Source: Anadara kagoshimensis (Eukaryota > Mollusca > Bivalvia > Arcoida > Arcidae). Taken from it: a stretch of DNA of 64,000 bases. The notes under the pieces were generated by a model. That model had not been told where the DNA came from and did no database searches. It saw nothing but the letters and a program-made list of their open reading frames with translations. This document shows positions 8,301 through 35,740 of the stretch, piece after piece. The translations under genes and the position numbers were made by a program. Each line of letters opens with the position of its first letter. Position 1 is the first letter of the stretch. The DNA is taken from positions 47,988,077 to 48,052,076 of the forward strand of contig CM037869.1 of NCBI GenBank assembly GCA_021292105.1. The letters are read 5' to 3'.

Positions 8301-8332
8301 GAATACCAAGGATCATGGAATACAGTGGTTTT

Positions 8333-8338
8333 AATAAA
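8333..8338 (+). terminator. Candidate poly(A) signal, gene A
   Basis: AATAAA in the conserved context GTGGTTTTAATAAACATAGCTGG. The same hexamer in the same context sits at 20383 and 32582, immediately after each G-rich tract, so the 3' UTR probably includes that tract. Confidence 0.5.
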
Positions 8339-8395
8339 CATAGCTGGACATTATGATAAAACAAAAACATAAGAGTATTAATTGTTTATATGTTG

Positions 8396-10610: not shown

Positions 10611-10776
10611 TACAGTCAAACCTGTATATAAAGGCCACACAAGGGAACCAGTTAAAGTGGCATTTAGGGACAGGTGGTCCTTATATAGAGGTTCAAATAA
10701 CATTAATAAAGAGCACTTACGATGAAATTTTACTGACCCTTATATATTGTTGGGGTTTAAGACAGGTTTGACTGTA
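10611..10776 (+). mobile_element. MITE with TACAGTCAAACCTG inverted ends (family 1, unit A)
   Basis: 166 bp bounded by TACAGTCAAACCTGT and the near-perfect inverse ACAGGTTTGACTGTA, with AAGGCCAC-type internal motifs. No coding capacity. Further copies are at 22328, 34525, 44290 and 54511; the first three are unit homologues, the last two independent insertions in SAP130 introns. Confidence 0.75.
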
Positions 10777-14330: not shown

Positions 14331-15290
14331 ACAAGTGGCCCATGGGCCTTAACACTCACCTGAGGCTGACCACATATATGATGCAGAGGTTCAATCGTCA
14401 ATGGCTTTACTTATAGAGAATGTCCAAATTTTCACCAGTAAGGGCCAATTACATGCAAGGTTTTTTTTCAAATTATAACTTGTCCTAAGAATGCTACCTA
14501 TAAAATATCTAAAGTCTTGCAACAATATATAATTTATAAACAGCAAAAACAAAGCCATAACCTTCATCGATACATCAAAATGACTATTAGGCAAATACCG
14601 ACATTTTTTTAGATAATTAACCATTTCAGTAATCATTTGCATTTATGACCTTGATCTTTGAACCTATGATTTTCATTTATATATCAAAATGATTGATAGG
14701 CCAATGCCTACAATATTCTAATATACATAGCTTTACAAAAATTTTATAGTTTTAGAGAAAATTAATTATTTCAGTATTCGTTTGCATCTTTGACTTTGAC
14801 CTTTGAACCTAGGACTTTCATTCATATATTATTATGATCGAAAGGCCATTGCCTACAATATTCAATACAAAGAAGTTTATAGTTTTTGAGATAATTAACC
14901 ATTTCAGTAATTTAGCATCTATGACCGTGACCTTTGAACCTATGACCGTCATCTATATATAAAAATGATCGTTGGGCTAATACCTACAATATTCTAATAT
15001 ACATGCCTATACAAAGTTTATAGTTTTTCAGATATATTGATAAATGCATAAATTTTAGCAATTTCCCCATTTTGGCCCCAACAGTTACGATTTGTGCAAA
15101 TCTGAAACTAGATGTCCTAAGTATGTTTCACATGAAATAACTAAGCTATAACTCTTGTAAGTTCAGAGGAGATGATTTTTAAAGATTTTCACAATTTAGC
15201 CCTTTATAGGGCCATGGAGCCTCCTTTCATTTGTGCAAATCTGAAAGCCCCTCACCTAGACATCATTACTGCCATCATCCAAATTGGCTT
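14331..15290 (+). mobile_element. Helitron-like element at the A/B junction
   Basis: Begins ACAAGTGGCCCATGGGCCTT followed by CACTCACCTGAGG, the same head as the elements at 46,450 and 47,322. Inside are diverged repeats around TGACCTTTGAACCTA. The 3' end is uncertain. The near-identical partner at the B/C junction starts at 26,525; the end of unit C lacks it. Confidence 0.5.
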
Positions 15291-15789
15291 TCTTTTCTTT
15301 CTTTCTTTTTTGCGTTGCTTTTTCATGTCTTTTGCAGAGTAGAAACGTCTAAAAACTAAGCTTTAAATGACAAAATTGCGAATGAGTTGAATAGATATTC
15401 CGAAATTCCGAAAATAAACAGCTTATGAATAAAAAATTACTCAAGAGTCGTGGGCAAATGTTTGGTTACTGAAACTATTACAACCGGATTAACAGGACTA
15501 GGCCTATCTATATAAAGAAACTCGTTTTGAGGAAAATATATTTCACATTTCTGTAGAAAACGGAGCATGTCTTCAGAATGGGAAGTTACTTTTCAGTTGA
15601 TATTGCTACGATGGTAACAATAAGAAAAAGTAACTTGCCATTGTTAAGATATAGTTCGGCCTAGCCTTTCTAGTTGTTATACACATATCAACCGTGTACT
15701 TTGGATAACAATTGATTGAATGGGGTTAACGTCCTAGACAAGAATATTTCACTTAAATCGATACTTCACCAACTATAAGTGAAGTGACA

Positions 15790-16052
15790 GAAATTTTGAC
15801 CTTTTCGGTGCGCTCTGGGCAATCACTGTACAGGGAGGGTCACAGTCAACGTGCCACGCCTGTCAGGTCACGGGGCGTCGTCTTAAATAAGGTCTCTTTC
15901 GAAGTACCCCGTGACATCCATATTTAAATGGCGAAAGGGAACAGTAAACGCCTATTTTCAAATCTTTGTCTGACCCGGTTATGGTTCCAACCGGCAACCT
16001 TTCACAGACAAATCTACCACTCTACTAACTAAGCTACAGCTGTTGTTCCAAG
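15790..16052 (-). repeat. tRNA-derived SINE, unit B
   Basis: Homologue of the SINE at 3544 in the same upstream position. On the minus strand an A box (TAGCTTAGTTAGTAGAGTGG) is still clear, but the B box is mutated (GGTTGGAACC). Confidence 0.65.
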
Positions 16053-16247
16053 GTTCCAACAAAAGATAACTTGGATTACATATATTTATATATGCATGTT
16101 TGTTAGTAAACAATATACTAAAATAAATTATATTTAATATTAATTAACTTAAGCTTAAAATCAGAATTTTATCTAAATCATCCAAATTGACACTGATAAT
16201 TAAAATATAACGCATCAAAGTACAAAATATTAAAATATCTACACCTG

Positions 16248-16336
16248 TATATATAACCCGACCAAAGGGCAGTAGTCGAGTATTGTACAGAAATATACAC
16301 AGCATCACAAACATCAGAGAAATTACTGCTGAAAAA
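16248..16336 (+). promoter_or_regulatory. TATA promoter and noncoding exon 1, gene B
   Basis: TATATATAA at 16248-16256 and a donor GTAAGT at 16337, in the same arrangement as unit A. The acceptor partner is the CTACAG ending at 17618. Confidence 0.5.
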
Positions 16337-16527
16337 GTAAGTTATGCTTCTATAAAAAGAAATTACTTGTCTTTCTGTATTGCATTTTATACAAGTGGTC
16401 AATTTCATGTCTGAATTCAGTCTGAGTTGGATGGAGTGAAGTTATGGTGTTTCTTGCCCAAGTCAAGATTTTTTTTACTTATCTGGAAGTTCTAGGATGG
16501 CGTAGTAAACCGAACTAACCTGAGAAA

Positions 16528-17111
16528 TGACCACTGCGGTAGAGAGCTCGCTCCGTAAGTGGGAGGTCGTCGGTTCGATGTCCGGCCGGGTCTGACCCAA
16601 GACTTGAAAGTTAGTAGTGACTGTTCTTTCGCCAAGCATCCGGCATTACGAAATTAAAGTCAAGGTTCTTTTGGATGGGAACTTAAAACTAGAAAAACTG
16701 TGAGCCACAAGCTTACAAAAAATCCCCCCCGCAAATCCATCGGATCAAATTTTTAAATAGAAGGTGCACATCTTCATTATATCACAAATATTGTGTAAAA
16801 GTTTCATGAAAATCCATTAAAGTGTTTAGGAAGAGTTGCGGATAAAAGATAGGTACCCTAAAGTGTAACAGAAGGACGGACACACGGACGGACACCCCTA
16901 TCACTATATAACCCCGGTTTTTGAAGCGGGGGTATAATAAACAAGGTCCCGTGTCACGGTGGGCTTGGCACGCTAAAGAGCCCTGCTGTATAATGCCATC
17001 AGCGCAACGCAAAGGCAAAATTGCTGCACCTTCGCGTATAGCTGGCGAAGTCTCGATATAAATGAACTATTCTTGACTGGGACGTTAAACATCATTACTC
17101 AACTCAACTCA
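16528..17111 (+). mobile_element. Composite full-length SINE with 12-bp target-site duplication (unit B)
   Basis: A 584-bp insertion flanked by TAACCTGAGAAA at 16516-16527 and 17112-17123; unit A has one uninterrupted version of this site. It starts with a tRNA-like head (A box GCGGTAGAGAGCTCGCTCC, B box GGTTCGATGTCC), contains GGACGGACACACGG and a body with CCCGTGTCACGGTGGGC and GGGACGTTAAAC-like sequence, and ends in an ACTCA-type simple tail. The 3' domain resembles widespread invertebrate SINE 3' domains, which I recognise only by motif. It lies in the 5'-UTR intron of gene B. Confidence 0.8.
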
Positions 17112-17189
17112 TAACCTGAGAAAACAATAGACCTTTGACAACTGAATTGACAAATTTTGTTATACTAAGATCTGTCTAAGCTAAGTGAG

Positions 17190-17500
17190 GAGAGGAAGTG
17201 TTGTGAGCGGATGTAGACAACTGCATTTGCAAAGTGCTTGGCAAAAGAACTTTCACTGCCTATTTTCAAGTATTGCTCAGACCCGGCAAAAGTTCGAACT
17301 CACATCCTCCCTAATATGGAGCGATCATTTCACCAGCTGAGTAACCGTAGTTGTTCGGTAGTGGTTCGCTTAGCAAAAGAACAGTCGCTATCTATTTTCA
17401 AGTAATGGTCAGACCCCGGATGGGGTTTGAACGCACCACATACACATACAAAGTTAACACTCTACTAACTGAGTTACTGAAGTGGTGCTCCATAGTGGTT
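17190..17500 (-). repeat. Two adjacent minus-strand SINE copies, unit B
   Basis: Homologues of the pair at 4870-5160 with similar A-box-like motifs, retained in the same position upstream of the acceptor. Confidence 0.55.
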
Positions 17501-17773
17501 TGAGAAGTAAACAGTTTAAATAAAATCATTTCATTAAAATTTATAATGATTTTTAGTATAAACTGTCTACTTCTGGGTTTAAAATTACAATTAGAGTTCA
17601 TTTGTTTCTTTTCTACAGAAAACGAGCCAATAGCTGACTGGATTTAGTTATACACAAGCAGCATTTAAACACACTTAAGTCTTAACCTGTTTAAAGCGGT
17701 TACTACGGTAACATTGGTTCATATACTTTAGCAGCATAAGGAACAATTATCCTTAACGTTGAAAGCTGTCACT

Positions 17774-17803
17774 ATGACAACGGTATTGGCTCAAGGACAG
17801 TAG
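17774..17803 (+). promoter_or_regulatory. Upstream ORF in the leader of gene B
   Basis: Nine codons (MTTVLAQGQ, stop) paralogous in sequence to the true N-terminus (MATVVAQD). A further, ATG-less echo (AAAGCGGTTACTACGGTAAC) lies about 80 bp upstream, so the start region appears three times in units B and C. Confidence 0.5.
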
Positions 17804-17847
17804 CAGACTACACGGCCATCATCTCTTACCTTTTGAAAGCAGTCACC

Positions 17848-19507
17848 ATGGCAACAGTAGTTGCTCAAGACAAATTTACACTGCAATGTGACCTCTGTAA
17901 GAATCCCCACGATGTCAAGTGGAAATGCCTAAAATGTAAAGAATGGTTATGTTTCAACTGTAAAACAGCCCACACCAACAGCAGAGCCACCAAAGACCAC
18001 CACGTGTCGTCACTAATGGATGCCGATCTCGCTGATCAACTTCAAATACAGAGTAAATTGTGCAAGACACACAAAACAGAATCCCTCTGCATGTACTGCA
18101 ACAACTGTAAACAACCCATTTGTCTTCGTTGCATAACAGGTCATCATGAGTCGCACACGTTTGAACATCTTTCTGACATCATTAACAGAAAGATGGAAGA
18201 CCTGAAAAATACTTTGAAAATCTTAAAAAATATGAGATGCAAGACTTAGAGAAAACAGGCAGAGAAATCCAATGTGTCCAGTATCGGTACGAAGGGGAAA
18301 TTCAAACCTGTATGGAAAACATCAGACAACAAGGAAGGCAACTGAAAGACGCCGTGGACACAATAGTAGAGACTTCCGTCAAAATGTTAGAACAAAAAGC
18401 AAAGGAGGACAGGACACATATAAAAACCACTAAAGAAGAACATGTAAAACAAAAACAAAATTTACGGAAAATCATTGAAAATGGCGAGAAGGAGATGGAG
18501 TCATCAAGTGCCATAGAAATTATTAACATGTCAGATGAGATGAAAACCAAAACAAAACAACTTCTACCCACCAAAAAACAACAAATCCATGTCCAAGCTG
18601 CGACATTCGTCCACCGTCCTCCTGATACAAATACCAGCGAAATGCTTAAGGAAATGTTCGGCCATTTTGATTTCGAAATGGAAGACGAAAAAGGTTCTGA
18701 ATGCGTTGCTATAGCGAGAATTCCCGACAAAACACCACAAGTAAAGATTATATCAAAATTCCAATATGGAGGATTTGGAGCAAGAAAAATATACTGCTGT
18801 GATCAACAGATAGCATGGTTGGGCTATAGAACAACACTCACAAAAATAAAAAAAGATGGAACTGAACTTAAATCTATTAGAAGTCAAAATAATGTAAGAG
18901 GATTAGCCAGGTCAAACACTGGTCAGTTACTTATCTCCACAGATAACTATAGTATTGACACGCTAAAAACCACAGAAACAGGTACTAAACCATTCTGTAG
19001 AACAAACAGTGCTTATTATGGTGGAATCTGTGTGGCTCAGGATGGCGATATTTATCAATGCCATATACCAGGGTGGTAAAGATGTCATCTGATGGTAAAG
19101 AGAAACAAATAATTGATTTTAAATATGGAAAATGTGCAGTTGTTAAAAGTGTCAGGTGCATAACTCAGAATGTTAATGGTGACCTGTGGATAACTGGTGG
19201 TGCTGGTGCCAACTGTGTGGTTCTGAGTAAAGATGGGGAATACAAATTCTGCTACAAAGGACCAACAGACATTCAATTGGAAAACCCTTCTGCATTTTGT
19301 GATCTAACTCATAATAAAGATGGCGAGGTTCTGATTTGTGATTGTAACAACAACAATGTACACATGGTGGACAGAGATGGCAACTTTATTCAGTTTTTAC
19401 TAACAGAGGACCATGGGATAAACGGGCCATATTATATATCACATGATGAACAAAGGGGTGTGTGGGTAGGATGTGATGATGGAACTGTATTAGTTGCTGA
19501 ATACTAA
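17848..19507 (+). pseudogene. TRIM-like gene copy B, disrupted by two 1-base deletions
   Basis: Nearly identical to copy C but broken into three reading frames. The first deletion shortens an A6 run to A5 at 18205-18209, in the codons for the start of the coiled coil, and gives a stop at 18249 after about 133 aa. The second removes one A of CAAT at 19063 within the propeller. The frame resumes to the normal stop at 19507. As it stands only the two B-boxes could be made. Both lesions are in short homopolymers and flanking noncoding differences from C are also homopolymer length changes, so consensus errors are a real alternative to true pseudogenisation. Promoter, noncoding exon and leader are retained. 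Confidence 0.8.
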
Positions 19508-19549
19508 GTACACAGAATAGAATGAAGAATATAATTATTATTGAGAGGA

Positions 19550-20345
19550 TGGTTGGGTTAGATTGTGGGGGAGGTGTTGAGTGGAATGTAATAGTATGTG
19601 GAGGTAAGATGTGAGGTGTGTTTATAGGTTGTGGGGATGGTTGGGGTAAGTTGTCAGATTTTTTGGTCAAGTTTGTTAGGGTGTGTTGGTTTGGTAATGA
19701 GGATATGTGGTGGTACGTAGTGGGGATATTTAAAGTAAGTTGTAAGAATGTTTGGGTGGAATCTAGAGATGTGTTAGGTAGAATGTTAGGACATATGGGG
19801 TGGGATCTGATGATGTGTGGAGTAGGATTTGAGGTGTGTGGAGTAGGTTCCGAGGGTGTGTGGGATAAGGTTTGGGGATGCGTGGGGCACAATGTTGGGA
19901 TGTTTTAGGTAGGTTTTAAAGATGTGTGGTTTGGAATGTGGGGATGTGTTAGGTGGATTTTTGGGGATAGGTATAGCATGCAGGTGTGTGACAGGAAGTG
20001 GCAATGGATTTGTATAAGTTGCTGAATACATTGTAAATGCTTACAATTGTACGATAAATGTGGGTGGGGACACGGACATGGTAGAATAAAGAAAGGTGCG
20101 GGTAGGATATCGGGAGATGTGGGGTAGGATATGGGGACATGTGGGAGATGTGGGGACATGAGAGGTAGAATGTTGAGATATGTTTGGTACAATATTGGGA
20201 GTGTGGGGTAGGATGTGGGGAGATGTGAGGTAGGATGTAGGGATAAATTGGGTAAGATATTGGAATGTGTTAGGTTGGGTGTGGGGTAGAATGAGGCAAT
20301 GGGTAGAATGTGGTGACGTATGGGTAGGATGTAGGAATAATACTT
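19550..20345 (+). repeat. G/GT-rich minisatellite after gene B
   Basis: Degenerate GGGGTAGGATGTGGGGA-like repeats between the stop codon and AATAAA at 20383. Shorter than in unit A and almost identical to unit C. Confidence 0.75.
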
Positions 20346-20382
20346 GCTGCTGAATACAAAGGATCATGGAATACAGTGGTTT

Positions 20383-20388
20383 AATAAA
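20383..20388 (+). terminator. Candidate poly(A) signal, gene B
   Basis: AATAAA in the same context as at 8333 and 32582. Confidence 0.45.
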
Positions 20389-20399
20389 CATAGCTGGCC

Positions 20400-23090
20400 A
20401 ATATGATAAAACAAAAACAGACTTTTAACTTTTTGTATGGTGAATTTCTGGAAATATAGTAGTTTCTTACCATCGTAGATACCGTGAATTAGCTTTAGGC
20501 TTCTAAAGATGCATCCTTGTGCACCATAACATTCCTAGCATATTGGTTCCGGTTGTGCAATAACAGTCTGATCGGAACTTGACTTTTTATGTAATAATGT
20601 TTATTTAGCCGACACTTATATGATGAAATTTATGGTAGGTACACTAACAACCACATCTAGTAACGAGTTTCGAGTGTCTACAGCCCTTTGGCTGAATGAC
20701 TTTTGGCATGGTGATAGTTTAACCTTGTTTTTGTTGTTACCTCGTGTTTGTATTACATGTGATCTTTTATCAAGATTGTTCATTAACATGGCCTACTCCA
20801 CTTAGAATTTTAAAAGAGCTCCAAGTCCTCTAGGTTAGAAATTCAGTAACAGTGTTATCCGTGATGTGAACATAATATAACATTCAAACCGATGTTGTTC
20901 AATCTAACAAAGACTTGGAGATATCTCTGGTTTTACAAGATTAAAAATGAAACAAGACTCATTTTTTCACCGTGAATAAAGTTTACTTTACAAACTTTCA
21001 TCCTATGATGTAATAGAATACTGTTTACAATACTGTAAATCAAACTTTATGTTTTTCTCTTGCTAAACATTTCGTTACTTTTGAACAATTGACTATAGCT
21101 GAATATTTCCTATAAATAATACCATTTTCATAAACATGTTTGCGTTCATTAACTTAAGCAATTACCGGTATTGTGATACTGTTAAACACATGGAAGTTAT
21201 TCACACGAGAATAAAAGTTGGTCTACAGTATTTTTATCGCTCTTTGTCGTATATCTTTTTTTCTTCAACTGACATTATTTTTCGATGAACTGTTAAGGTG
21301 TAAATAGTTCGGAAATATTGCATTCAGAATTCACAAAGAGTCCAAATTGATATACATTGTATGATTTTGTATCTAATTTGATGTCTTCTATTCAATCTAG
21401 TATTTTTTAAAATTTTCATTTGTAAAAAGAACATTTACATGATTGTATATATAAGAATTGAAGTTTGCTTCGCTTTGAGATTTATGTGATTTGTCCGAGC
21501 ATGATTTAACAGTTCATACTATGATAAAAAATTGAAAAAAAATACCAAATTATCAATCCGGTATACTCACACTATATGTTATTTTCATGCATAATTGTTA
21601 ATTTCATTTAATTGTGACTTGGAATTGTTGATAATACAACAGGACATTGAATTATGTATACTTTTAACTGTAACGATTTTGTATCTTGTAACTCACTAAG
21701 AATTTAATGCGCACTCGATATACTTGAACATTTTTCAACAAAGGAGATTTTTTACGAAGTGGTTATTGCCCCGTACGTGTCAATAACAAATGTGTTATTA
21801 CCACATATTTTTTTACCCGTATTTTGTATTATACGTGTACATGGGCTTTATACATGTAACTTTATGAATGGCTGAAAGTACACCAATTTAGTGATAATAA
21901 AAGTATATTTAATAGAAATTTGTCATATTTGGGTCAAATAATAGATTATTTGATAAAAAACGTAAATATGGTTGTAAATCCGCCGTTTTGTTTTTCGTCA
22001 TACGGTCGGGTCGTGTTTTGCAGTTCATCGCGATCAAAAATCGATCATCAATCATTTAGACAGCAACTTTCTGGAAAAATATCAATAAAATTTTGTTTTA
22101 ATTTAAAATTGGACTATTTAATCTTATTCAATCGATGTATGAAGTTACATGCGTACGGTTATACGGGTATAAAAAACGTGATAATAACATCCGCCTTTTT
22201 TTAAATATAGAGTTTTTAGTGTCAATATCTATCCATTTTATTAAAATAGAACTAAAAAGTTTTTAAGTGTTTTGATGTTGTGTAACTCTTCTTTATGGTA
22301 AATATCAAAGTAAGAAAAGATAAAATGTACAGTCAAGCCTATTTATAAAGACCACCACAGGGAACCAGTTAAAGTGGCATTTAGGGGCAGGTGGTCCTTA
22401 CAGAGAGGTTCAAATAACATTAATAAAGAGCACTGACGATAAAATTTTACTGACTCTAATATATTGTTGGGGTTTAAGACAGGTTTGACTGTACTTATGA
22501 ATAATTCAGGTTTTTTTGCAGGTCATATGTGCATGGTCCCAAGTACCTTGTCAAAGATTTACTATATAAGAAGAAACATTACCAGTAGAAGACTTTCACC
22601 GTTTTGATGTTCCAAACTACTGTATTTCCATAAATTGAGTGCACATGGTTTTTATTATTTATTTCTTTTAATTGAAAATGTTTGCAATAAATCAATAAAA
22701 TGCATTTTAAATGCACTGACCTAACCAAATTATATTTTTAATTATAAACATTATTGTTCAGTTCTCCTGTACATAGAGAATTTTGCGAAAATTTTGGAAC
22801 TTTGATCAAGTTTATACATCAATTGGACCTCATTTAAAGTTACATTAGGTCATTTAGGGCCAGGTAGGTCATAGTTGTTTCGGGTTTTTCCAGAATAATC
22901 CAATTATGACATAACGTTTATAGTTGTTCCAAGTAAAAAGGAACAGAAGGGATAATTTTGACATAGTCACATTTGTTGTTTCCTTAAAACGTTCAAAAAT
23001 GGCTCTATGTAAAGAAATAAGTTCACTGTTTTATGAATGAAAAATATTTTTTCCGATTATGTTAGTATATGTTGTATTAAGTTGTGACAA
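20400..23090. other. AT-rich tail of unit B up to the retroposon
   Basis: Homologous to 8,760-11,365 of unit A, without its 107-bp repeats. Holds the MITE at 22328-22493. No gene seen. Confidence 0.6.
22328..22493 (+). mobile_element. MITE family 1, unit B
   Basis: Homologue of 10611-10776, with ends TACAGTCAAGCCT and AGGTTTGACTGTA. Confidence 0.7.
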
Positions 23091-23302
23091 CCAACTCAGT
23101 AGGCAATAATTCCGTATTATTGTCAGAAATATACTATAATTGTCTAAATTTCCTGCAAGTTAAAATTTGAAATTTCTCAAAAACTAAGGTATACTCCCTC
23201 ATGCAAAGTATTTCCTTAGCTTAATTTGGTAAAATATATTTTGGCCCTTTGGGTAGCTTTTCAACATCTTCAAAATAATTTTGGTTTCATAACTTTGGTC
23301 CA

Positions 23303-23348
23303 AGCACTACTGATGAGGAATTGTATTCCGAAACGGCCGTCTAGTGCT
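23303..23348 (+). ncRNA. Hammerhead ribozyme, type I, copy 1
   Basis: In order: stem I strand AGCACTA, conserved core CTGATGA, stem II GGAAT/ATTCC closed by TGT, GAAA, a minimal stem III (AC/GT with GGCC loop), C17, and stem I strand TAGTGCT (perfect 7-bp complement). All invariant hammerhead core bases are present. Predicted cleavage is after the C of GTC at 23341. Open ends on stem I make it type I, the form known from metazoan and plant retrozymes. Confidence 0.93.
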
Positions 23349-23641
23349 GTAAAATTAAAACTGGTATAATATGTAATTTAAACCCCTGAGCCGATATCTC
23401 TGCTGGTGGCTGGTGCCCCGAGGATATCACCAACTCAGTAGGCAATAATTCCGTATTATTGTCAGAAATATACTATAATTGTCTAAATTTCCTGCAAGTT
23501 AAAATTTGAAATTTCTCAAAAACTAAGGTATACTCCCTCATGCAAAGTATTTCCTTAGCTTAATTTGGTAAAATATATTTTGGCCCTTTGGGTAGCTTTT
23601 CAACATCTTCAAAATAATTTTGGTTTCATAACTTTGGTCCA

Positions 23642-23687
23642 AGCACTACTGATGAGGAATTGTATTCCGAAACGGCCGTCTAGTGCT
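23642..23687 (+). ncRNA. Hammerhead ribozyme, type I, copy 2
   Basis: Identical to copy 1; predicted cleavage after 23680, 339 nt downstream of the first site, so paired cleavages would release a 339-nt monomer. Confidence 0.93.
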
Positions 23688-23980
23688 GTAAAATTAAAAC
23701 TGGTATAATATGTAATTTAAACCCCTGAGCCGATATCTCTGCTGGTGGCTGGTGCCCCGAGGATATCACCAACTCAGTAGGCAATAATTCCGTATTATTG
23801 TCAGAAATATACTATAATTGTCTAAATTTCCTGCAAGTTAAAATTTGAAATTTCTCAAAAACTAAGGTATACTCCCTCATGCAAAGTATTTCCTTAGCTT
23901 AATTTGGTAAAATATATTTTGGCCCTTTGGGTAGCTTTTCAACATCTTCAAAATAATTTTGGTTTCATAACTTTGGTCCA

Positions 23981-24026
23981 AGCACTACTGATGAGGAATT
24001 GTATTCCGAAACGGCCGTCTAGTGCT
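23981..24026 (+). ncRNA. Hammerhead ribozyme, type I, copy 3
   Basis: Identical to copy 1; predicted cleavage after 24019. Confidence 0.93.
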
Positions 24027-24319
24027 GTAAAATTAAAACTGGTATAATATGTAATTTAAACCCCTGAGCCGATATCTCTGCTGGTGGCTGGTGCCCCGAG
24101 GATATCACCAACTCAGTAGGCAATAATTCCGTATTATTGTCAGAAATATACTATAATTGTCTAAATTTCCTGCAAGTTAAAATTTGAAATTTCTCAAAAA
24201 CTAAGGTATACTCCCTCATGCAAAGTATTTCCTTAGCTTAATTTGGTAAAATATATTTTGGCCCTTTGGGTAGCTTTTCAACATCTTCAAAATAATTTTG
24301 GTTTCATAACTTTGGTCCA

Positions 24320-24365
24320 AGCACTACTGATGAGGAATTGTATTCCGAAACGGCCGTCTAGTGCT
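24320..24365 (+). ncRNA. Hammerhead ribozyme, type I, copy 4
   Basis: Identical to copy 1; predicted cleavage after 24358. Confidence 0.93.
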
Positions 24366-24658
24366 GTAAAATTAAAACTGGTATAATATGTAATTTAAAC
24401 CCCTGAGCCGATATCTCTGCTGGTGGCTGGTGCCCCGAGGATATCACCAACTCAGTAGGCAATAATTCCGTATTATTGTCAGAAATATACTATAATTGTC
24501 TAAATTTCCTGCAAGTTAAAATTTGAAATTTCTCAAAAACTAAGGTATACTCCCTCATGCAAAGTATTTCCTTAGCTTAATTTGGTAAAATATATTTTGG
24601 CCCTTTGGGTAGCTTTTCAACATCTTCAAAATAATTTTGGTTTCATAACTTTGGTCCA

Positions 24659-24704
24659 AGCACTACTGATGAGGAATTGTATTCCGAAACGGCCGTCTAG
24701 TGCT
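24659..24704 (+). ncRNA. Hammerhead ribozyme, type I, copy 5
   Basis: Identical to copy 1; predicted cleavage after 24697. It is the last ribozyme before the unique 3' part, so cleavage here would detach the poly(A) end from the multimer. Confidence 0.93.
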
Positions 24705-25287
24705 GTAAAATTAAAACTGGTATAATATGTAATTAATGCTGTGAACTGTCCATCTTTTGTGCTTAATATTGATAATGTATACATATAAACAAACACAAAA
24801 TATATGACAAGTACTTCTTCCTTTCCTCCTTCCTTCCTTAGTCTAGTTTTCTAGTCCTGTTACCAGATGTTCTCCTTTTTTTCGCTATTATGCTACACTG
24901 TCATTCTTTCTGGTAACCTATCTCTCAATCTCCATTTTATCTATCTTACATATACACACACACACACATGCATATGCTAACATGAACACACACACACACA
25001 CAACACACACACACACACAAATGCATGCATACCAAAACAAATTTAAAAACCAGACTGCATGAAATAGCTTTATTTGCCAAATGCTATATAAAATGTAAAG
25101 TACCAAATTTGACAATATATTAAGTAGGTATATGTTAAATATACCTAGTATATATACAAACATTATGTAAATTTTTGTTAAAAATATTTTGTGGCTAAAA
25201 TTTGTAAGTATGATGAACCCAGGGCAGGTTCCAATCCTGGCATCATTCATCCATTAGTTAAGTCTGGCCAATAAAAAATATCAATTA

Positions 25288-25320
<33 letters not shown>

Positions 25321-25332
25321 AAGTTGTGACAA

Positions 25333-26524
25333 AATTTTTGTGAGTTTGTTGGAAAATACGACTTTATTCTTGCATTTTCCATGTACACTGAATTTGTGGA
25401 AATACAGTACATGTAATTCGCTGTGAGACATTTTTACTGTTGAGTGTACCATGGGAAATAAAAAATCTATGAGGAGACGATATATTCACGTTACCAGAGT
25501 CAGCATGAAAATAGCGAATATTTTTCATTCGTAAATGTTTCTTCGTATAAAGTATGCCTCCTTGGCTCCAGGCAAATGTTATTTATAAAACAAACATCAA
25601 AGTATTATGCGTCGTAATATATTGATGACATTTGACTGTAATAGTAATTGAAATTAACCTTCCTTAGATCAACCTGTTTGTTTTTGCTGGCATTCAATCG
25701 CTCATTAATAGATGCTTTGTGAGCATTACCTCTAATTATGTAACATTTGATTATCCGATGACATCAAGGAACGTCATCCTATTACTCTTACTGTAAATGT
25801 ATTTCATTTCGCCTGAATTTATTTTCGCGGTTAAGGTCATTTAGACATATCCGCATAGTTAAATTTTCACATTTCTAAAATATGCACTATAACACAAGAC
25901 ATAATATAATTTTCGCTTTGTATTAATTTTCGCGCAAAACAAACGACGTTGTGTGATTGGTCAGCATTCAAGCCTCGTTCCGACATTTCCATCTTTATTT
26001 GGAAAAAATCTGTTCCATCAATATCACATCTATGTCGGAATCTCGAATCAAATAAATTTTTGTAGCGATAATTATATATTTCTGTCAGGCTGACAATATT
26101 TGTATGATTGTAAATATGAGAAAAAAATTCTATTGTGAGTGTACTCATTTGGTATTACAAATAAATCCATTGAAATAGAAAGTTACTGTAGTTCTTAATT
26201 CTTGATAAGTTAGATAAGGGCTGTACACGTGCAACAGGTGTAACTCTGTATGAATTATTTATAATTGATGATACAAGTGACTGTGCAACTGCTCCAGTGT
26301 AAGTCTGTATAAATTATTCGTCATCCTTCAAAGTGCCACAACACTTGACGTATTTTTAACTTTAATTTCATACTTTGTGTGATTTGAGAACCTTGTTTGA
26401 TCTATAGACAATAAATTCTTCCTAATTGGAGTCAAGTGTATTTGTCGTGTATTAAGGAGTATGCAAATGAAGAGTAGACAAAAACAGATGTTTTACTCAG
26501 GTCTGGGATCTCCTTCAAACTAAA
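25333..26524. other. AT-rich tail of unit B after the retroposon
   Basis: Homologous to parts of 11,380-14,330 of unit A and to 35,290-36,900 of unit C. No gene seen. Identity to the A counterpart is only about 90% by eye until about 26,620, where it becomes almost complete. Confidence 0.55.
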
Positions 26525-27480
26525 ACAAGAGGACTCTGGGCCTTAACACTCACCTGAGGCTGATCAAATATATCTTGCAGAGGTTCAATGGTCAATGACT
26601 TTAATTAGAGACAATGTCCAAATTTTCACCAGTAAGGGCCAATTACATGCAAGGTTTTTTTCAAATTATAACTTGTCTTAAGAATGCTACCTATAAAATA
26701 TCTAAAGTCTTGCAACAATATATAATTTATAAACAGCAAAAACAAAGCCATAACCTTCATCGATACATCAAAATGACTATTAGGCAAATACCGACATTTT
26801 TTAGATAATTAACCATTTCAGTAATCATTTGCATTTATGACCTTGATCTTTGAACCTATGATTTTCATTTATATATCAAAATGATTGATAGGCCAATGCC
26901 TACAATATTCTAATATACATAGCTTTACAAAAATTTTATAGTTTTAGAGAAAATTAATTATTTCAGTATTCGTTTGCATCTTTGACTTTGACCTTTGAAC
27001 CTAGGACTTTCATTCATATATTATTATGATCGAAAGGCCATTGCCTACAATATTCAATACAAAGAAGTTTATAGTTTTTGAGATAATTAACCATTTCAGT
27101 AATTTAGCATCTATGACCGTGACCTTTGAACCTATGACCGTCATCTATATATAAAAATGATCGTTGGGCTAATACCTACAATATTCTAATATACATGCCT
27201 ATACAAAGTTTATAGTTTTTCAGATATATTGATAAATGCATAAATTTTAGCAATTTCCCCATTTTGGCCCCAACAGTTACGATTTGTGCAAATCTGAAAC
27301 TAGATGTCCTAAGTATGTTTCACATGAAATAACTAAGCTATAACTCTTGTAAGTTCAGAGGAGATGATTTTAAAGATTTTCACAATTTAGCCCTTTATAG
27401 GGCCCCATGGAGACATAATCCTTTCATTTGTGCAAATCTGAAAGCCCCTCACCTAGACATCATTACTGCCATCATCCAAA
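26525..27480 (+). mobile_element. Helitron-like element at the B/C junction
   Basis: Near-identical partner of 14331-15290. The head has mutated (ACAAGAGGACTCTGGGCCTT) and lost the palindromic CCCATGGG. 3' end uncertain. Confidence 0.5.
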
Positions 27481-27989
27481 TTGGCTTTCTTTTCTTTTCT
27501 TTCTTTTTTGCGTTGCTTTTTCATGTCTTTTGCAGAGTAGAAACGTCTAAAAACTAAGCTTTAAATGACAAAATTGCGAATGAGTTGAATAGATATTCCG
27601 AAATTCCGAAAATAAACAGCTTATGAATAAAAATTACTCAAGAGTCGTGGGCAAATGTTTGGTTACTGAAACTATTACAACCGGATTAACAGGACTAGGC
27701 CTATCTATATAAAGAAACTCGTTTTGAGGAAAATATATTTCACATTTCTGTAGAAAACGGAGCATGTCTTCAGAATGGGAAGTTACTTTTCAGTTGATAT
27801 TGCTACGATGGTAACAATAAGAAAAAGTAACTTGCCATTGTTAAGATATAGTTCGGCCTAGCCTTTCTAGTTGTTATACACATATCAACCGTGTACTTTG
27901 GATAACAATTGATTGAATGGGGTTAACGTCCTAGACAAGAATATTTCACTTAAATCGATACTTCACCAACTATAAGTGAAGTGACAGAA

Positions 27990-28250
27990 ATTTTGACCTT
28001 TTCGGTGCGCTCTGGGCAATCACTGTACAGGGAGGGTCACAGTCAACGTGCCACGCCTGTCAGGTCACGGGGCGTCGTCTTAAATAAGGTCTCTTTCGAA
28101 GTACCCCGTGACATCCATATTTAAATGGCGAAAGGGAACAGTAAACGCCTATTTTCAAATCTTTGTCTGACCCGGTTATGGTTCCAACCGGCAACCTTTC
28201 ACAGACAAATCTACCACTCTACTAACTAAGCTACAGCTGTTGTTCCAAGG
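27990..28250 (-). repeat. tRNA-derived SINE, unit C
   Basis: Copy of the unit B SINE at 15790-16052, with the same mutated B box. Confidence 0.6.
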
Positions 28251-28444
28251 TTCCAACAAAAGATAACTTGGATTACATATATTTATATATGCATGTTTGT
28301 TAGTAAACAATATACTAAAATAAATTATATTTAATATTAATTAACTTAAGCTTAAAATCAGAATTTTATCTAAATCATCCAAATTGACACTGATAATTAA
28401 AATATAACGCATCAAAGTACAAAATATTAAAATATCTACACCTG

Positions 28445-28533
28445 TATATATAACCCGACCAAAGGGCAGTAGTCGAGTATTGTACAGAAATATACACAGC
28501 ATCACAAACATCAGAGAAATTACTGCTGAAAAA
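28445..28533 (+). promoter_or_regulatory. TATA promoter and noncoding exon 1, gene C
   Basis: TATATATAA at 28445-28453, donor GTAAGT at 28534; acceptor partner ends at 29816. Confidence 0.5.
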
Positions 28534-28724
28534 GTAAGTTATGCTTCTATAAAAAGAAATTACTTGTCTTTCTGTATTGCATTTTATACAAGTGGTCAAT
28601 TTCATGTCTGAATTCAGTCTGAGTTGGATGGAGTGAAGTTATGGTGTTTCTTGCCCAAGTCAAGATTTTTTTTACTTATCTGGAAGTTCTAGGATGGCGT
28701 AGTAAACCGAACTAACCTGAGAAA

Positions 28725-29309
28725 TGACCACTGCGGTAGAGAGCTCGCTCCGTAAGTGGGAGGTCGTCGGTTCGATGTCCGGCCGGGTCTGACCCAAGAC
28801 TTGAAAGTTAGTAGTGACTGTTCTTTCGCCAAGCATCCGGCATTACGAAATTAAAGTCAAGGTTCTTTTGGATGGGAACTTAAAACTAGAAAAACTGTGA
28901 GCCACAAGCTTACAAAAAATCCCCCCCGCAAATCCATCGGATCAAATTTTTAAATAGAAGGTGCACATCTTCATTATATCACAAATATTGTGTAAAAGTT
29001 TCATGAAAATCCATTAAAGTGTTTAGGAAGAGTTGCGGATAAAAGATAGGTACCCTAAAGTGTAACAGAAGGACGGACACACGGACGGACACCCCTATCA
29101 CTATATAACCCCGGTTTTTGAAGCGGGGGGTATAATAAACAAGGTCCCGTGTCACGGTGGGCTTGGCACGCTAAAGAGCCCTGCTGTATAATGCCATCAG
29201 CGCAACGCAAAGGCAAAATTGCTGCACCTTCGCGTATAGCTGGCGAAGTCTCGATATAAATGAACTATTCTTGACTGGGACGTTAAACATCATTACTCAA
29301 CTCAACTCA
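28725..29309 (+). mobile_element. Composite SINE with target-site duplication, unit C
   Basis: Duplicate of 16528-17111, made by the unit duplication rather than by a second insertion, since the same 12-bp TAACCTGAGAAA flanks it (28713-28724, 29310-29321) and the sequences are nearly identical. Confidence 0.8.
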
Positions 29310-29387
29310 TAACCTGAGAAAACAATAGACCTTTGACAACTGAATTGACAAATTTTGTTATACTAAGATCTGTCCAAGCTAAGTGAG

Positions 29388-29700
29388 GAGAGGAAGTGTT
29401 GTGAGCGGATGTAGACAACTGCATTTGCAAAGTGCTTGGCAAAAGAACTTTCACTGCCTATTTTCAAGTATTGCTCAGACCCGGCAAAAGTTCGAACTCA
29501 CATCCTCCCTAATATGGAGCGATCATTTCACCAACTGAGTAACCGTAGTTGTTCGGTAGTGGTTCGCTTAGCAAAAGAACAGTCGCTATCTATTTTCAAG
29601 TAATGGTCAGACCCCGGATGGGGTTTGAACGCACCACATACACATACAAAGTTAACACTCTACTAACTGAGTTACTGAAGTGGTGCTCCATAGTGGTTTG
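29388..29700 (-). repeat. Two adjacent minus-strand SINE copies, unit C
   Basis: Homologues of the pairs at 4870 and 17190, in the same position relative to the splice acceptor. Confidence 0.55.
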
Positions 29701-29971
29701 AGAAGTAAACAGTTTAAATAAAATCATTTCATTAAAATTTATAATGATTTTTAGTATAAACTGTCTACTTCTGGGTTTAAAATTACAATTAGAGTTCATT
29801 TGTTTCTTTTCTACAGAAAACGAGCCAATAGCTGACTGGATTTAGTTATACACAAGCAGCATTTAAACACACTTAAGTCTTAACCTGTTTAAAGCGGTTA
29901 CTACGGTAACATTGGTTCATATACTTTAGCAGCATAAGGAACAATTATCCTTAACGTTGAAAGCTGTCACT

Positions 29972-30001
29972 ATGACAACGGTATTGGCTCAAGGACAGTA
30001 G
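29972..30001 (+). promoter_or_regulatory. Upstream ORF in the leader of gene C
   Basis: Identical nine-codon upstream ORF (MTTVLAQGQ, stop) to unit B, 45 nt before the main ATG. Confidence 0.5.
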
Positions 30002-30045
30002 CAGACTACACGGCCATCATCTCTTACCTTTTGAAAGCAGTCACC

Positions 30046-31707
30046 ATGGCAACAGTAGTTGCTCAAGACAAATTTACACTGCAATGTGACCTCTGTAAGA
30101 ATCCCCACGATGTCAAGTGGAAATGCCTAAAATGTAAAGAATGGTTATGTTTCAACTGTAAAACAGCCCACACCAACAGCAGAGCCACCAAAGACCACCA
30201 CGTGTCGTCACTAATGGATGCCGATCTCGCTGATCAACTTCAAATACAGAGTAAATTGTGCAAGACACACAAAACAGAATCCCTCTGCATGTACTGCAAC
30301 AACTGTAAACAACCCATTTGTCTTCGTTGCATAACAGGTCATCATGAGTCGCACACGTTTGAACATCTTTCTGACATCATTAACAGAAAGATGGAAGACC
30401 TGAAAAAATACTTTGAAAATCTTAAAAAATATGAGATGCAAGACTTAGAGAAAACAGGCAGAGAAATCCAATGTGTCCAGGATCGGTACGAAGGGGAAAT
30501 TCAAACCTGTATGGAAAACATCAGACAACAAGGAAGGCAACTGAAAGACGCCGTGGACACAATAGTAGAGACTTCCGTCAAAATGTTAGAACAAAAAGCA
30601 AAGGAGGGCAGGACACATATAAAAACCATCAAAGAGGAACATGTAAAACAAAAACAAAATTTACGGAAAATCATTGAAAATGGCGAGAAGGAGATGGAGT
30701 TATCAAGCGCCATAGAAATTATTAACATGTTAGATGAGATGAAAACCAAAACAAAACAACTTCTAGCCACCAAAACACAACCAATCCATGCACAAGCTCC
30801 GGCATTCGTCCACCGTCCTCCTGATACAAATACCAGCGAAATGCTTAAGGAAATGTTCGGCCATTTTGATTTCGAAATGGAAGACGAAAAAGGTTCTGAA
30901 TGCGTTGCTATAGCGAGAATTCCCGACAAAACACCACAAGTAAAGATTATATCAAAATTCCAATATGGAGGATTTGGAGCAAGAAAAATATACTGCTGTG
31001 ATCAACAGATAGCATGGTTGGGCTATAGAACAACACTCACAAAAATAAAAAAAGATGGAACTGAACTTAAATCTATTAGAAGTCAAAATAATGTAAGAGG
31101 ATTAGCCAGGTCAAACACTGGTCAGTTACTTATCTCCACAGATAACTATAGTATTGACACGCTAAAAACCACAGAAACAGGTACTAAACCATTCTGTAGA
31201 ACAAACAGTGCTTATTATGGTGGAATCTGTGTGGCTCAGGATGGCGATATTTATCAATGCCAATATACCAGGGTGGTAAAGATGTCATCTGATGGTAAAG
31301 AGAAACAAATAATTGATTTTAAATATGGAAAATGTGCAGTTGTTAAAAGTGTCAGGTGCATAACTCAGAATGTTAATGGTGACCTGTGGATAACTGGTGG
31401 TGCTGGTGCCAACTGTGTGGTTCTGAGTAAAGATGGGGAATACAAATTCTGCTACAAAGGACCAACAGACATTCAATTGGAAAACCCTTCTGCATTTTGT
31501 GATCTAACTCATAATAAAGATGGCGAGGTTCTGATTTGTGATTGTAACAACAACAATGTACACATGGTGGACAGAGATGGCAACTTTATTCAGTTTTTAC
31601 TAACAGAGGACCATGGGATAAACGGGCCATATTATATATCACATGATGAACAAAGGGGTGTGTGGGTAGGATGTGATGATGGAACTGTATTAGTTGCTGA
31701 ATACTAA
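30046..31707 (+). CDS. TRIM-like protein: two B-boxes, coiled coil, C-terminal NHL-type propeller (copy C)
   Basis: Intact 553-aa single-exon coding sequence starting at the ATG in CACCATGG. Same architecture as copy A: an N-terminal Cys/His B-box pair (residues about 14-52 and 72-107), a coiled coil (about 108-260) and a propeller-like C-terminal half ending GCDDGTVLVAEY. No RING. It is largely identical to copy B outside a coiled-coil stretch where C is the odd one out (TQPIHAQAP against KKQQIHVQA in both A and B). Substitutions from A are concentrated in the propeller (residues about 300-360) and in the coiled coil, while both B-boxes are nearly constant, as expected if the propeller face is the variable recognition surface. 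Function is inferred from the family only. Confidence 0.9.
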   Translation: MATVVAQDKFTLQCDLCKNPHDVKWKCLKCKEWLCFNCKTAHTNSRATKDHHVSSLMDADLADQLQIQSKLCKTHKTESLCMYCNNCKQPICLRCITGHHESHTFEHLSDIINRKMEDLKKYFENLKKYEMQDLEKTGREIQCVQDRYEGEIQTCMENIRQQGRQLKDAVDTIVETSVKMLEQKAKEGRTHIKTIKEEHVKQKQNLRKIIENGEKEMELSSAIEIINMLDEMKTKTKQLLATKTQPIHAQAPAFVHRPPDTNTSEMLKEMFGHFDFEMEDEKGSECVAIARIPDKTPQVKIISKFQYGGFGARKIYCCDQQIAWLGYRTTLTKIKKDGTELKSIRSQNNVRGLARSNTGQLLISTDNYSIDTLKTTETGTKPFCRTNSAYYGGICVAQDGDIYQCQYTRVVKMSSDGKEKQIIDFKYGKCAVVKSVRCITQNVNGDLWITGGAGANCVVLSKDGEYKFCYKGPTDIQLENPSAFCDLTHNKDGEVLICDCNNNNVHMVDRDGNFIQFLLTEDHGINGPYYISHDEQRGVWVGCDDGTVLVAEY

Positions 31708-31749
31708 GTACACAGAATAGAATGAAGAATATAATTATTATTGAGAGGA

Positions 31750-32545
31750 TGGTTGGGTTAGATTGTGGGGGAGGTGTTGAGTGGAATGTAATAGTATGTG
31801 GAGGTAAGATGTGAGGTGTGTTTATAGGTTGTGGGGATGGTTGGGGTAAGTTGTCAGATTTTTTGGTCAAGTTTGTTAGGGTGTGTTGGTTTGGTAATGA
31901 GGATATGTGGTGGTACGTAGTGGGGATATTTAAAGTAAGTTGTAAGAATGTTTGGGTGGAATCTAGAGATGTGTTAGGTAGAATGTTAGGACATATGGGG
32001 TGGGATCTGATGATGTGTGGAGTAGGATTTGAGGTGTGTGGAGTAGGTTCCGAGGGTGTGTGGGATAAGGTTTGGGGATGCGTGGGGCACAATGTTGGGA
32101 TGTTTTAGGTAGGTTTTAAAGATGTGTGGTTTGGAATGTGGGGATGTGTTAGGTGGATTTTTGGGGATAGGTATAGCATGCAGGTGTGTGACAGGAAGTG
32201 GCAATGGATTTGTATAAGTTGCTGAATACATTGTAAATGCTTACAATTGTACGATAAATGTGGGTGGGGACATGGACATGGTAGAATAAAGAAAGGTGCG
32301 GGGTAGGATATCGGGAGATGTGGGGTAGGATATGGGGACATGTGGGAGATGTGGGGACATGAGAGGTAGAATGTTGAGATATGTTTGGTACAATATTGGG
32401 AGTGTGGGGTAGGATGTGGGGAGATGTGAGGTAGGATGTAGGATAAATTGGGTAAGATATTGAATGTGTTAGGTTGGGTGTGGGGTAGAATGAGGCAATG
32501 GGTAGAATGTGGTGACGTATGGGTAGGATGTAGGAATAATACTTG
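31750..32545 (+). repeat. G/GT-rich minisatellite after gene C
   Basis: Near-copy of the tract after gene B, differing mostly by single-base length changes in G runs. Confidence 0.75.
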
Positions 32546-32581
32546 CTGCTGAATACAAAGGATCATGGAATACAGTGGTTT

Positions 32582-32587
32582 AATAAA
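32582..32587 (+). terminator. Candidate poly(A) signal, gene C
   Basis: AATAAA in the conserved context also found at 8333 and 20383. Confidence 0.45.
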
Positions 32588-32599
32588 CATAGCTGGCCA

Positions 32600-35500
32600 A
32601 TATGATAAAACAAAAACAGACTTTTAACTTTTTGTATGGTGAATTTCTGGAAATATAGTAGTTTCTTACCATCGTAGATACCGTGAATTAGCTTTAGGCT
32701 TCTAAAGATGCATCCTTGTGCACCATAACATTCCTAGCATATTGGTTCCGGTTGTGCAATAACAGTCTGATCGGAACTTGACTTTTTATGTAATAATGTT
32801 TATTTAGCCGACACTTATATGATGAAATTTATGGTAGGTACACTAACAACCACATCTAGTAACGAGTTTTGAGTGTCTACAGCCCTTTGGCTGAATGACT
32901 TTTGGCATGTGATAGTTTAACCTTGTTTTTGTTGTTACCTCGTGTTTGTATTACATGTGATCTTTTATCAAGATTGTTCATTAACATGGCCTACTCCACT
33001 TAGAATTTTAAAAGAGCTCCAAGTCCTCTAGGTTAGAAATTCAGTGACAGTGTTATCCGTGATGTGAACATAATATAACATTCAAACCGATGTTGTTCAA
33101 TCTAACAAAGACTTGGAGATATCTCTGGTTTTACAAGATTAAAAATGAAACAAGACTCATTTTTTCACCGTGAATAAAGTTTACTTTACAAACTTTCATC
33201 CTATGATGTAATAGAATACTGTTTACAATACTGTAAATCAAACTTTATGTTTTTCTCTTGCTAAACATTTCGTTACTTTTGAACAATTGACTATAGCTGA
33301 ATATTTCCTATAAATAATACCATTTTCATAAACATGTTTGCGTTCATTAACTTAAGCAATTACCGGTATTGTGATACTGTTAAACACATGGAAGTTATTC
33401 ACACGAGAATAAAAGTTGGTCTACAGTATTTTTATCGCTCTTTGTCGTATATCTTTTTTTTCTTCAACTGACATTATTTTTCGATGAACTGTTAAGGTGT
33501 AAATAGTTCGGAAATATTGCATTCAGAATTCACAAAGAGTCCAAATTGATATACATTGTATGATTTTGTATCTAATTTGATGTCTTCTATTCAATCTAGT
33601 ATTTTTTAAAATTTTCATTTGTAAAAAGAACATTTACATGATTGTATATATAAGAATTGAAGTTTGCTTCGCTTTGAGATTTATGTGATTTGTCCAAGCA
33701 TGCTTTAACAGTTCATGATGAAAATTGAAAAATAACCCACCAAATTATCAATCTGGCATACTCACACTATATGTTATTTTCATGCATAATTGTTAATTTC
33801 ATTTAATTGTGACTTGGAATTGTTGATAATACAACAGGACATTGAATTATGTATACTTTTAACTGTAACGATTTTGTATCTTGTAACTCACTAAGAATTT
33901 AATGCGCACTCGATATACTTGAACATTTTTCAACAAAGGAGATTTTTTACGAAGTGGTTATTGCCCCGTACGTGTCAATAACAAATGTGTTATTACCACA
34001 TATTTTTTTACCCGTATTTTGTATTATACGTGTACATGGGCTTTATACATGTAACTTTATGAATGGCTGAAAGTACACCAATTTAGTGATAATAAAAGTA
34101 TATTTAATAGAAATTTGTCATATTTGGGTCAAATAATAGATTATTTTGATAAAAAACGTAAATATGGTTGTAAATCCGCCGTTTTGTTTTTCGTCATACG
34201 GTCGGGTCGTGTTTTGCAGTTCATCGCGATCAAAAATCGATCATCAATCATTTAGACAGCAACTTTCTGGAAAAATATCAATAAAATTTTGTTTTAATTT
34301 AAAATTGGACTATTTAATCTTATTCAATCGATGTATGAAGTTACATGCGTACGGTTATACGGGTATAAAAAAACGTGATAATAACATCCGCCTTTTTTTA
34401 AATATAGAGTTTTTAGTGTCAATATCTATCCATTTTATTAAAATAGAACTAAAAAGTTTTTAAGTGTTTTGATGTTGTGTAACTCTTCTTTATGGTAAAT
34501 ATCAAAGTAAGAAAAGATAAAATGTACAGTCAAGCCTATTTATAAAGACCACCACAGGGAACCAGTTAAAGTGGCATTTAGGGGCAGGTGGTCCTTACAG
34601 AGAGGTTCAAATAACATTAATAAAGAGCACTGACGATAAAATTTTACTGACTCTAATATATTGTTGGGGTTTAAGACAGGTTTGACTGTACTTATGAATA
34701 ATTCAGGTTTTTTTGCAGGTTATATGTGCATGGTCCCAAGTACCCTGTCAAAGATTTACTATATAAGAAGAAACATTACCAGTAGAAGACTTTCACCGTT
34801 TTGATGTTCCAAACTACTGTATTTCCTTAAATTGAGTGCACATGGTTTTTATTATTTATTTCTTTTAATTGAAAATGTTTGCAATAAATCAATAAAATGC
34901 ATTTTAAATGCACTGACCTAACCAAATTATATTTTAATTATAAACATTATTGTTCAGTTCTCCTGTAGATGGAGAAATTTTGCGAAAATTTTGGAACTTT
35001 GATCAAGTTTATACATTAATCGGGCCTCATTCGAAGCTACATTAGGCCATTTAGGGCCAGGTAGGTCATTGTTGTTCGGGTTGTTTTCCAGAATATTCCA
35101 ATTATGACATAATGTTTATATTTGTTCCAAGTGAAAAGGCACAGAAGGGATAATTTTGACACAGTCACATTTGTTGTTTTCTTAAATAGTTAAAAAATTG
35201 CTCTATGTAAAGAATTAAGTTCAATTTTTTATGAATGAAAAATATTTTTTCCTATTAGGTCAGTATATTTTTTATTAAGTTGTGACAAAATTTTTGTGAG
35301 TTTGTTGGAAAATACGACTTTATTCTCGCATTTTCCATGCGTACTGAATTTGTGGAAATACAGTACATGTAAGATGCTGTAAGACATTTTTACTGTTGAG
35401 TGTACCAAGGGAAATAAAAAATCTATGAGAAGTCGATATATTCACATTACCAGTGTCAGCATGAAAATAGCGAATATTTTTCATTCGTAAATGTTTCATC

Positions 35501-35740
35501 TTATAAAGTATGCCTCCTTGGCTCCAGGCAAATATTATTGATAAAACAAACATCAAAGTATTATGCGTCGTATTATATTGATGACATTTGTACTAGTAAT
35601 TAAAATTAACCTTCTTTAGATCAACCTGTTTGTTTTTGCTGGCATTCAATCGCTCATTGATAGATGTTTTGTGGGTCATGACCTCTAATTATGTAATATT
35701 TAATTATCCGATGACATCATGGAACATCATCCTATTTTAT
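32600..35740. other. AT-rich tail of unit C
   Basis: Homologous to the tails of A and B. Contains the MITE at 34525-34690 and the uninterrupted retroposon target site near 35,275-35,290. No gene seen. Confidence 0.6.
34525..34690 (+). mobile_element. MITE family 1, unit C
   Basis: Homologue of 10611-10776 and 22328-22493. Confidence 0.7.

Follow-up and report, generated by a model that had tools for sequence, protein, structure and literature searches.

A tandem hammerhead array of the animal retrozyme class joined to a LINE 3' end in Anadara kagoshimensis, and the common 3' edge of its genomic relatives

Retrozymes of animals (Acropora, Mytilus galloprovincialis, axolotl) have been described as tandem units carrying type I hammerhead ribozymes. 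The units are noncoding, AT-rich and a few hundred bp long, occur in thousands of copies per genome, and have a weak stem III with a palindromic loop; dimeric action has been reported for animal hammerheads with such a weak helix III (PMC7229834, accessible part). Plant retrozymes are likewise noncoding and flanked by hammerheads, and a circular RNA intermediate has been proposed for them. However, their hammerheads are of type III, and they possess LTRs, a primer-binding site and 4-bp duplications (PMC7229834). The accessible parts of PMC7229834 and PMC7761336 leave unanswered which reverse transcriptase copies animal retrozymes back into DNA and which RNA it uses as template. Penelope-like elements (PLE) also harbour a hammerhead near their end. 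An anole Penelope-like protein was found to initiate reverse transcription internally, at two neighbouring sites, and to cut at 5'-ATT-3' in vitro, where unprocessed RNA was accepted as well, hammerhead cleavage being unneeded (PMC11167929, accessible part).

The stretch of Anadara kagoshimensis DNA analyzed here (64,000 nucleotides, referred to as the window) contains an array of hammerhead-bearing units with the following features.

23091..24734, plus strand: retrozyme array of 4.85 head-to-tail units of 339 bp, noncoding
23303..23348, plus strand: hammerhead of unit 1, by strict descriptor and direct reading; predicted cleavage after 23341
23642..23687, plus strand: hammerhead of unit 2, by strict descriptor, with an Rfam match of 17.9 bits (under the gathering score); predicted cleavage after 23680
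23981..24026, plus strand: hammerhead of unit 3, by strict descriptor and sub-threshold Rfam match; predicted cleavage after 24019
24320..24365, plus strand: hammerhead of unit 4, by strict descriptor and sub-threshold Rfam match; predicted cleavage after 24358
24659..24704, plus strand: hammerhead of unit 5, by strict descriptor and sub-threshold Rfam match; predicted cleavage after 24697
23386..23438, plus strand: predicted hairpin directly 3' of the 3' edge of the family, first of four in the array

An earlier note on this DNA had proposed the 339-bp tandem array at 23091..24734 and its five intact type I hammerheads, and both were recovered. Tandem Repeats Finder reported a period of 339 over 23090-24734 of the window, with 4.9 copies and 100 % match, and comparison of the four full-length units with each other and with the final one of 289 bp revealed no differences. 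Base 23090 (A) can be assigned equally to the array or to the target duplication described below. A strict hammerhead descriptor, which required a stem I of 6 bp or more, CTGANGA, a stem II of 4 bp or more, GAAA, 2-14 nt and UH, matched the 64-kb window exactly five times, with cores at 23310, 23649, 23988, 24327 and 24666; the minus strand of the window and 100 dinucleotide shuffles of it yielded no matches. Direct reading showed the stems to be as claimed: the 7-bp stem I (AGCACUA/UAGUGCU) is followed by CUGAUGA, the 5-bp stem II with its 3-nt loop (GGAAU-UGU-AUUCC) by GAAA, and then come the palindrome CGGCCG, a U and C17, stem III being the palindrome ACGGCCGU. Cleavage is predicted after 23341 and at each 339 bp from there. 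The GC content is 0.32-0.33 across 22001-26000, an AT-rich setting. No open frames of at least 110 codons lie within 23091-24734, and the reverse transcriptase and GIY-YIG coding of a PLE is thus absent from the array. The Rfam check for type I hammerheads proposed in the same note turned out negative: no hammerhead was matched in the window at gathering score. With E values up to 5, Hammerhead_1 (RF00163) matched four of the five units, all but the first, at 17.9 bits versus a gathering score of 34 and in a register off by 3 nt.

Folding predictions point to cooperation between units. The minimum free energy predicted for a single motif (-12.3 kcal/mol) belongs to a misfold, compared to -7.8 kcal/mol for the hammerhead fold, and two motifs folded together are predicted to form a double hammerhead whose stem III measures 8 bp (-34.5 kcal/mol). 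Since a lone motif misfolds while two motifs co-fold, ribozyme activity probably depends on a dimer, that is, on adjacent units. The predicted double hammerhead agrees with the dimeric action described for animal hammerheads (PMC7229834, accessible part). The circular 339-nt unit folds no more strongly than its shuffles (z -0.76), and the hairpin 3' of the putative start site was dismissed as an exceptional structure, its energy being ordinary (z -1.1 and -0.8 with the stretch cut in two ways).

Type I hammerheads occur here in tandem units within the ~150-450 bp range of the class (five motifs, 339-bp units), and related copies are dispersed in large numbers over the genome without LTRs (see below). 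The array shares the other traits listed above for metazoan non-LTR retrozymes, the mussel units being compared by description, and differs from the plant type in the points named (PMC7229834, accessible part). These sequence characters support the assignment, made already in the earlier note, to the known class of animal non-LTR retrozymes.

Other repeats are present in the window. Three related segments lie in tandem (3435-11676, 13452-25783 and 25642-35736), each with a B-box (TRIM-like) frame; the frame is open in the first segment (5374-7137, 587 aa) and in the third (29938-31707, 589 aa), and in the middle one, at 17740-19507, it is in three pieces. A dense array on the palindrome GCGTTATAACGC occupies 4264-4762 and changes orientation near 4530. 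A satellite of ~145 bp recurs at 14605-15038, 26797-27230 and 46700-48648, and array L010 of the genome-wide sample sits in apparently the same satellite, as read by eye from its flank. Five copies of a 169-bp unit (96 % matches) are found at 50589-51432, and window positions 1-30 are a run of 30 C.

Searches of the host assembly (1.115 Gb, 36 contigs) revealed a large family. The hammerhead pattern gave 8,072 matches compared to 11 for a reversed control, and the 35 nt following the cleavage site, with up to three mismatches, gave 14,798 compared to 0. Viral contigs contained no exact match to the 32-nt core. Thirty-eight arrays, including that of the window, were read. They were picked among the best matches (39 of 1,359 candidates scored) and therefore represent the young end of the family. 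The arrays are dispersed over many contigs and lack LTRs. Leaving out L025, L040 and L042 as duplicates of L024, L047 and L028, 35 independent arrays were obtained. In all 35 the 3' edge falls at unit positions 287-292, 36-41 nt beyond the cleavage site, whereas 5' edges, measurable in 34 arrays, are scattered round the unit (KS p 0.19); the 5' edge of L046 lies outside the sequence fetched. The 3' edge of L013, placed at 295 by BLAST, was entered as 289 by eye. Three 5' edges were also shifted by eye, to 206 in L010, 329 in L013 and 328 in L054.

Less biased samples agree in the main on the 3' edge. Among 20 motif loci taken in order along contig C1, one was an internal unit; TATGTAA or a one-base variant forms the end of 14 of the remaining 19, while the five exceptions (L071, L072, L074, L075 and L083) end differently or are too diverged. 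A further 33 loci with the exact 3' 20-mer were obtained from the 82 listed matches up to C1:11.98 Mb by subtracting 33 with a listed motif and 16 already taken; 28 of them stop within a few nt and five continue into the next unit. The ends in these two samples were read by eye, and the 33 loci include the duplicates L113/L116 and L128/L129. Sixteen additional loci showed the same 3' stop. Following ...ATAATATGTA at the 3' edge, the next bases are A (32/33), T (33/33) and T (28/33). As the retrozyme RNA itself reads AUUU there, the ATT following the edge does not establish that a target motif is chosen.

Target duplications of ordinary arrays did not rise above the control. In 33 arrays (L014 and L046 also left out; for L054 the script took an internal unit) their mean was 2.73 versus 2.65 in the shuffled control. 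Repeats of at least 5 bp were found in 9/33 arrays (control 24 %), of at least 6 bp in 4/33 (8 %) and of at least 7 bp in 1/33 (2 %). Single candidates were rejected as well: the repeats of 6-7 bp seen at L010, L012 and L019 do not exceed chance expectation, the sequence of the 15-bp repeat across array L047 is itself repeated in the 3' flank, and the 10-bp repeat at L048 is no longer than the best control.

The 5' edges lie within 2 nt of the cleavage site in 3 of the 34 arrays (p 0.014), but other edges are commoner among the further loci described above, and their interpretation as a trace of in vivo cutting was rejected. L098 is a 35-nt copy reaching exactly from the cleavage site to the 3' edge; it occupies the identical place in one dispersed repeat as L024, an array also starting at the cleavage site. 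The 5' edges of L023, L027, L090, L114, L134 and L135 cluster around unit positions 228-230, within hammerhead stem II. Internal deletions whose right end lies at 250-252, the cleavage site, are seen in L088, L093/L094 and L132, loci that had been preselected because they are intact from 252 or 267 onward; they could reflect jumps of the enzyme at cut RNA. Array L045 lies ~0.29 Mb inward of the contig C5 end, and its 5' edge adjoins three telomere-type TTAGGG repeats, with TTAG common at the joint.

Variation among the units suggests one founder per array. Units of the 38 arrays diverge by 0.54 % within arrays (303 pairs) compared to 2.94 % between arrays (9,993 pairs). Of the 133 within-array variants of the 35 independent arrays, 122 are confined to one unit. 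Array-fixed variants are common to more than one array in 108 of 138 cases, and segregating variants segregate in just one array in 108 of 120. Most simply, each array would have been copied repeatedly round one unit-length template, and mutations would have come later. Variation is also uneven along the unit. In 103 full units, 73 variant events fall on the 127 sites of positions 213-339, comprising the hammerhead, the putative start site and the following hairpin, versus 222 on the 212 sites of positions 1-212, which is about half the rate per site. Two common changes in stem I keep the pairing as G-U (22 and 21 of 137 units). Taken by itself, 289-339 is the 22nd least variable of 339 windows of the unit. 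The counts lend modest support to a functional 3' block at 213-339.

It is considered fairly probable that the array arose as a rolling-circle retrozyme product, with an internal start of reverse transcription by what is likely a PLE enzyme, and that the copy in the window entered as one LINE-type insertion. Multimeric transcripts would be cut to 339-nt noncoding RNA by the hammerheads, most likely paired via the palindromic stem III, and this RNA would be closed into a circle. The reverse transcriptase, primed at an AT-rich nick, often ATT, would start at one internal place ~36-41 nt 3' of the cleavage site and copy the circle for one to many rounds, halting at a scattered 5' point. A single internal start with a variable stop on a circle would yield a fixed 3' edge, a variable 5' edge and one founder per array. 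Alternatively, the template may have been linear, a multimeric transcript from a parent array with uniform units, with the 3' edge marking the enzyme start or the RNA end. Such a multimer could likewise yield uniform arrays, and the acceptance of unprocessed RNA by the PLE protein in vitro fits with it (PMC11167929, accessible part). However, within-array variants are not inherited from array to array, as the segregating variants indicate, and a linear template, though possible, is judged rather unlikely beside the rolling circle.

The array of the window is not the stand-alone multimer suggested in the earlier note, but one part of a fusion with a LINE 3' end. The structure of the whole insertion is as follows.

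23076..23090, no strand: left copy of the 15-bp target duplication, ATTAAGTTGTGACAA, present as a single copy in each uninterrupted paralogue
24732..24734, plus strand: junction of array and LINE with shared ATT (3-bp overlap), from comparison with LINE copies
24735..25288, plus strand: 5'-truncated LINE 3' end, 554 bp, with AATAAA at 25270-25275
25289..25318, plus strand: poly(A) of 30 A, the final A of which may be part of the duplication
25318..25332, no strand: right copy of the 15-bp target duplication, ATTAAGTTGTGACAA, on the same basis as the left copy

The insertion spans 23091-25317, with the array as its 5' part. Including both copies of the duplication (23076-25332), it corresponds to C13:48,011,152-48,013,408 of the assembly. 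Comparison of the window with itself shows three related segments of ~8-12 kb, two of which are continuous through the site while the middle one is broken at 23091-25317. The insertion is absent from these two paralogous copies of the flank, one of them 98.4 % identical; together with the identity of the units, this bears out the young age proposed before. The insertion carries a poly(A), 5' truncation (3' UTR only) and a 15-bp duplication, all hallmarks of LINE insertion. Its 554-bp tail matches a separate family elsewhere in the genome (40 of 589 candidates scored), and its LINE identity rests on seven copies, L033-L039, each terminated by an A-rich run. Upstream of the tail, a reverse-transcriptase frame of 799 aa is open in L037 (RVT_1 3.5e-34, zf-RVT 2.9e-8); the frames of L034, L035 and L036 are 407, 130 and 172 aa long, and L033, L038 and L039 are shorter. 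As the copies elsewhere are LINE 3' ends, the tail in the window is taken to be a 5'-truncated LINE with the array replacing the remainder, and was ruled out as part of the retrozyme. Searching the assembly with as many as three mismatches allowed, the junction of array and LINE was found a single time.

Mammalian chimeric retrogenes, e.g. U6/L1, arise by LINE template switching. They resemble the insertion in the window in having a copy of a foreign RNA 5' of a truncated LINE end, a poly(A) and one enclosing duplication, but the foreign RNA in the window is a multimeric hammerhead unit. Neither fusion to a LINE 3' end nor a constant 3' edge combined with a single founder for each array is reported for metazoan retrozymes in the accessible part of PMC7229834, and a search of titles and abstract beginnings, mostly outside subscription journals, found neither a fixed 3' edge nor a LINE chimera for retrozymes.

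Array and truncated LINE 3' UTR would have been inserted together, in one LINE-type event. The LINE enzyme may have switched template onto retrozyme RNA; it must then have landed at the usual 3' edge of the family, a coincidence in need of explanation. By the other route, a LINE transcript already containing the array, acquired in a LINE 3' UTR elsewhere, would have been retroposed and truncated within the array. Such transduction accounts for the usual array edge within LINE sequence without coincidence, but its source junction is not found in the assembly even with three mismatches, and the source may be polymorphic or lost; taken by itself, this route is possible rather than probable. Template switch and transduction both fit the chimera, which does not separate them. 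A third order of events, in which the LINE with its duplication came first and an ordinary retrozyme later inserted exactly at the LINE 5' boundary, at ATT, is unlikely. The array does end at the usual family edge, and ordinary arrays lack a duplication of their own, so that the second event would be traceless. However, this order demands a base-exact insertion on the boundary, next to a duplication enclosing both parts, and in view of that single 15-bp duplication it is judged the least likely of the three.

With respect to the enzyme, the host genome contains at least 50 matches to GIY-YIG frames of the PLE kind. In one PLE family the copies end 42-44 nt (20/41) or 53-57 nt (21/41) past their own hammerhead cleavage site, the ends being taken from BLAST alignments in AT-rich sequence, with 40 of 177 candidates scored and the query's own place left aside. 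PLE therein resemble the retrozymes, both having fixed 3' ends beyond the cleavage site, and the published internal start and ATT cuts compare with the retrozyme edge (PMC11167929, accessible part). Unlike PLE, the retrozyme unit has no coding frame, and sequence similarity between the two was not found, save for a separate retrozyme copy beside one PLE. PLE hammerheads in this genome are minimal forms, with GCGC or GTAC where the retrozyme has CGGCCG. Since similarity is lacking, the retrozyme is said to work like a PLE product, not to be one. By analogy, the usual reverse transcriptase of retrozyme arrays is most likely Penelope-like. PLE copies often occur as inverted pairs with their 3' ends outward (C16:41985043-41985633, C1:3800374-3803749, L086 and L087).

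LINE enzymes might be the general movers of retrozymes instead of PLE, as the LINE hallmarks of the chimera would suggest. However, no duplication above control was found in ordinary arrays, and the LINE tail is present in 0 of 20 other arrays with long flanks, beyond short simple-sequence pieces at three loci (L018, L022 and L026); general movement by LINE enzymes is slightly less probable still than a later nested insertion. An ordinary satellite grown by unequal crossing over would account for the uniform head-to-tail units, but is highly improbable in view of the dispersal over many contigs, the one 3' edge of all 35 arrays where satellite edges should have no preferred unit position, the one founder per array, and variants that are mostly single-unit and seldom spread over neighbouring units.

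It is proposed, tentatively and with slightly less than even confidence, that animal retrozymes are non-autonomous partners of PLE, that their arrays are rolling-circle cDNAs made on a ribozyme-generated RNA circle from a fixed internal start just 3' of the hammerhead, and that capture by LINEs is possible. Thousands of copies with a common 3' edge and one founder per array turn the question of the enzyme into a concretely testable one: a PLE or a LINE protein may act on circular or linear 339-nt RNA, with a predicted start at unit positions 285-290. The copy in the window would represent a datable capture of retrozyme RNA in a LINE-type insertion.
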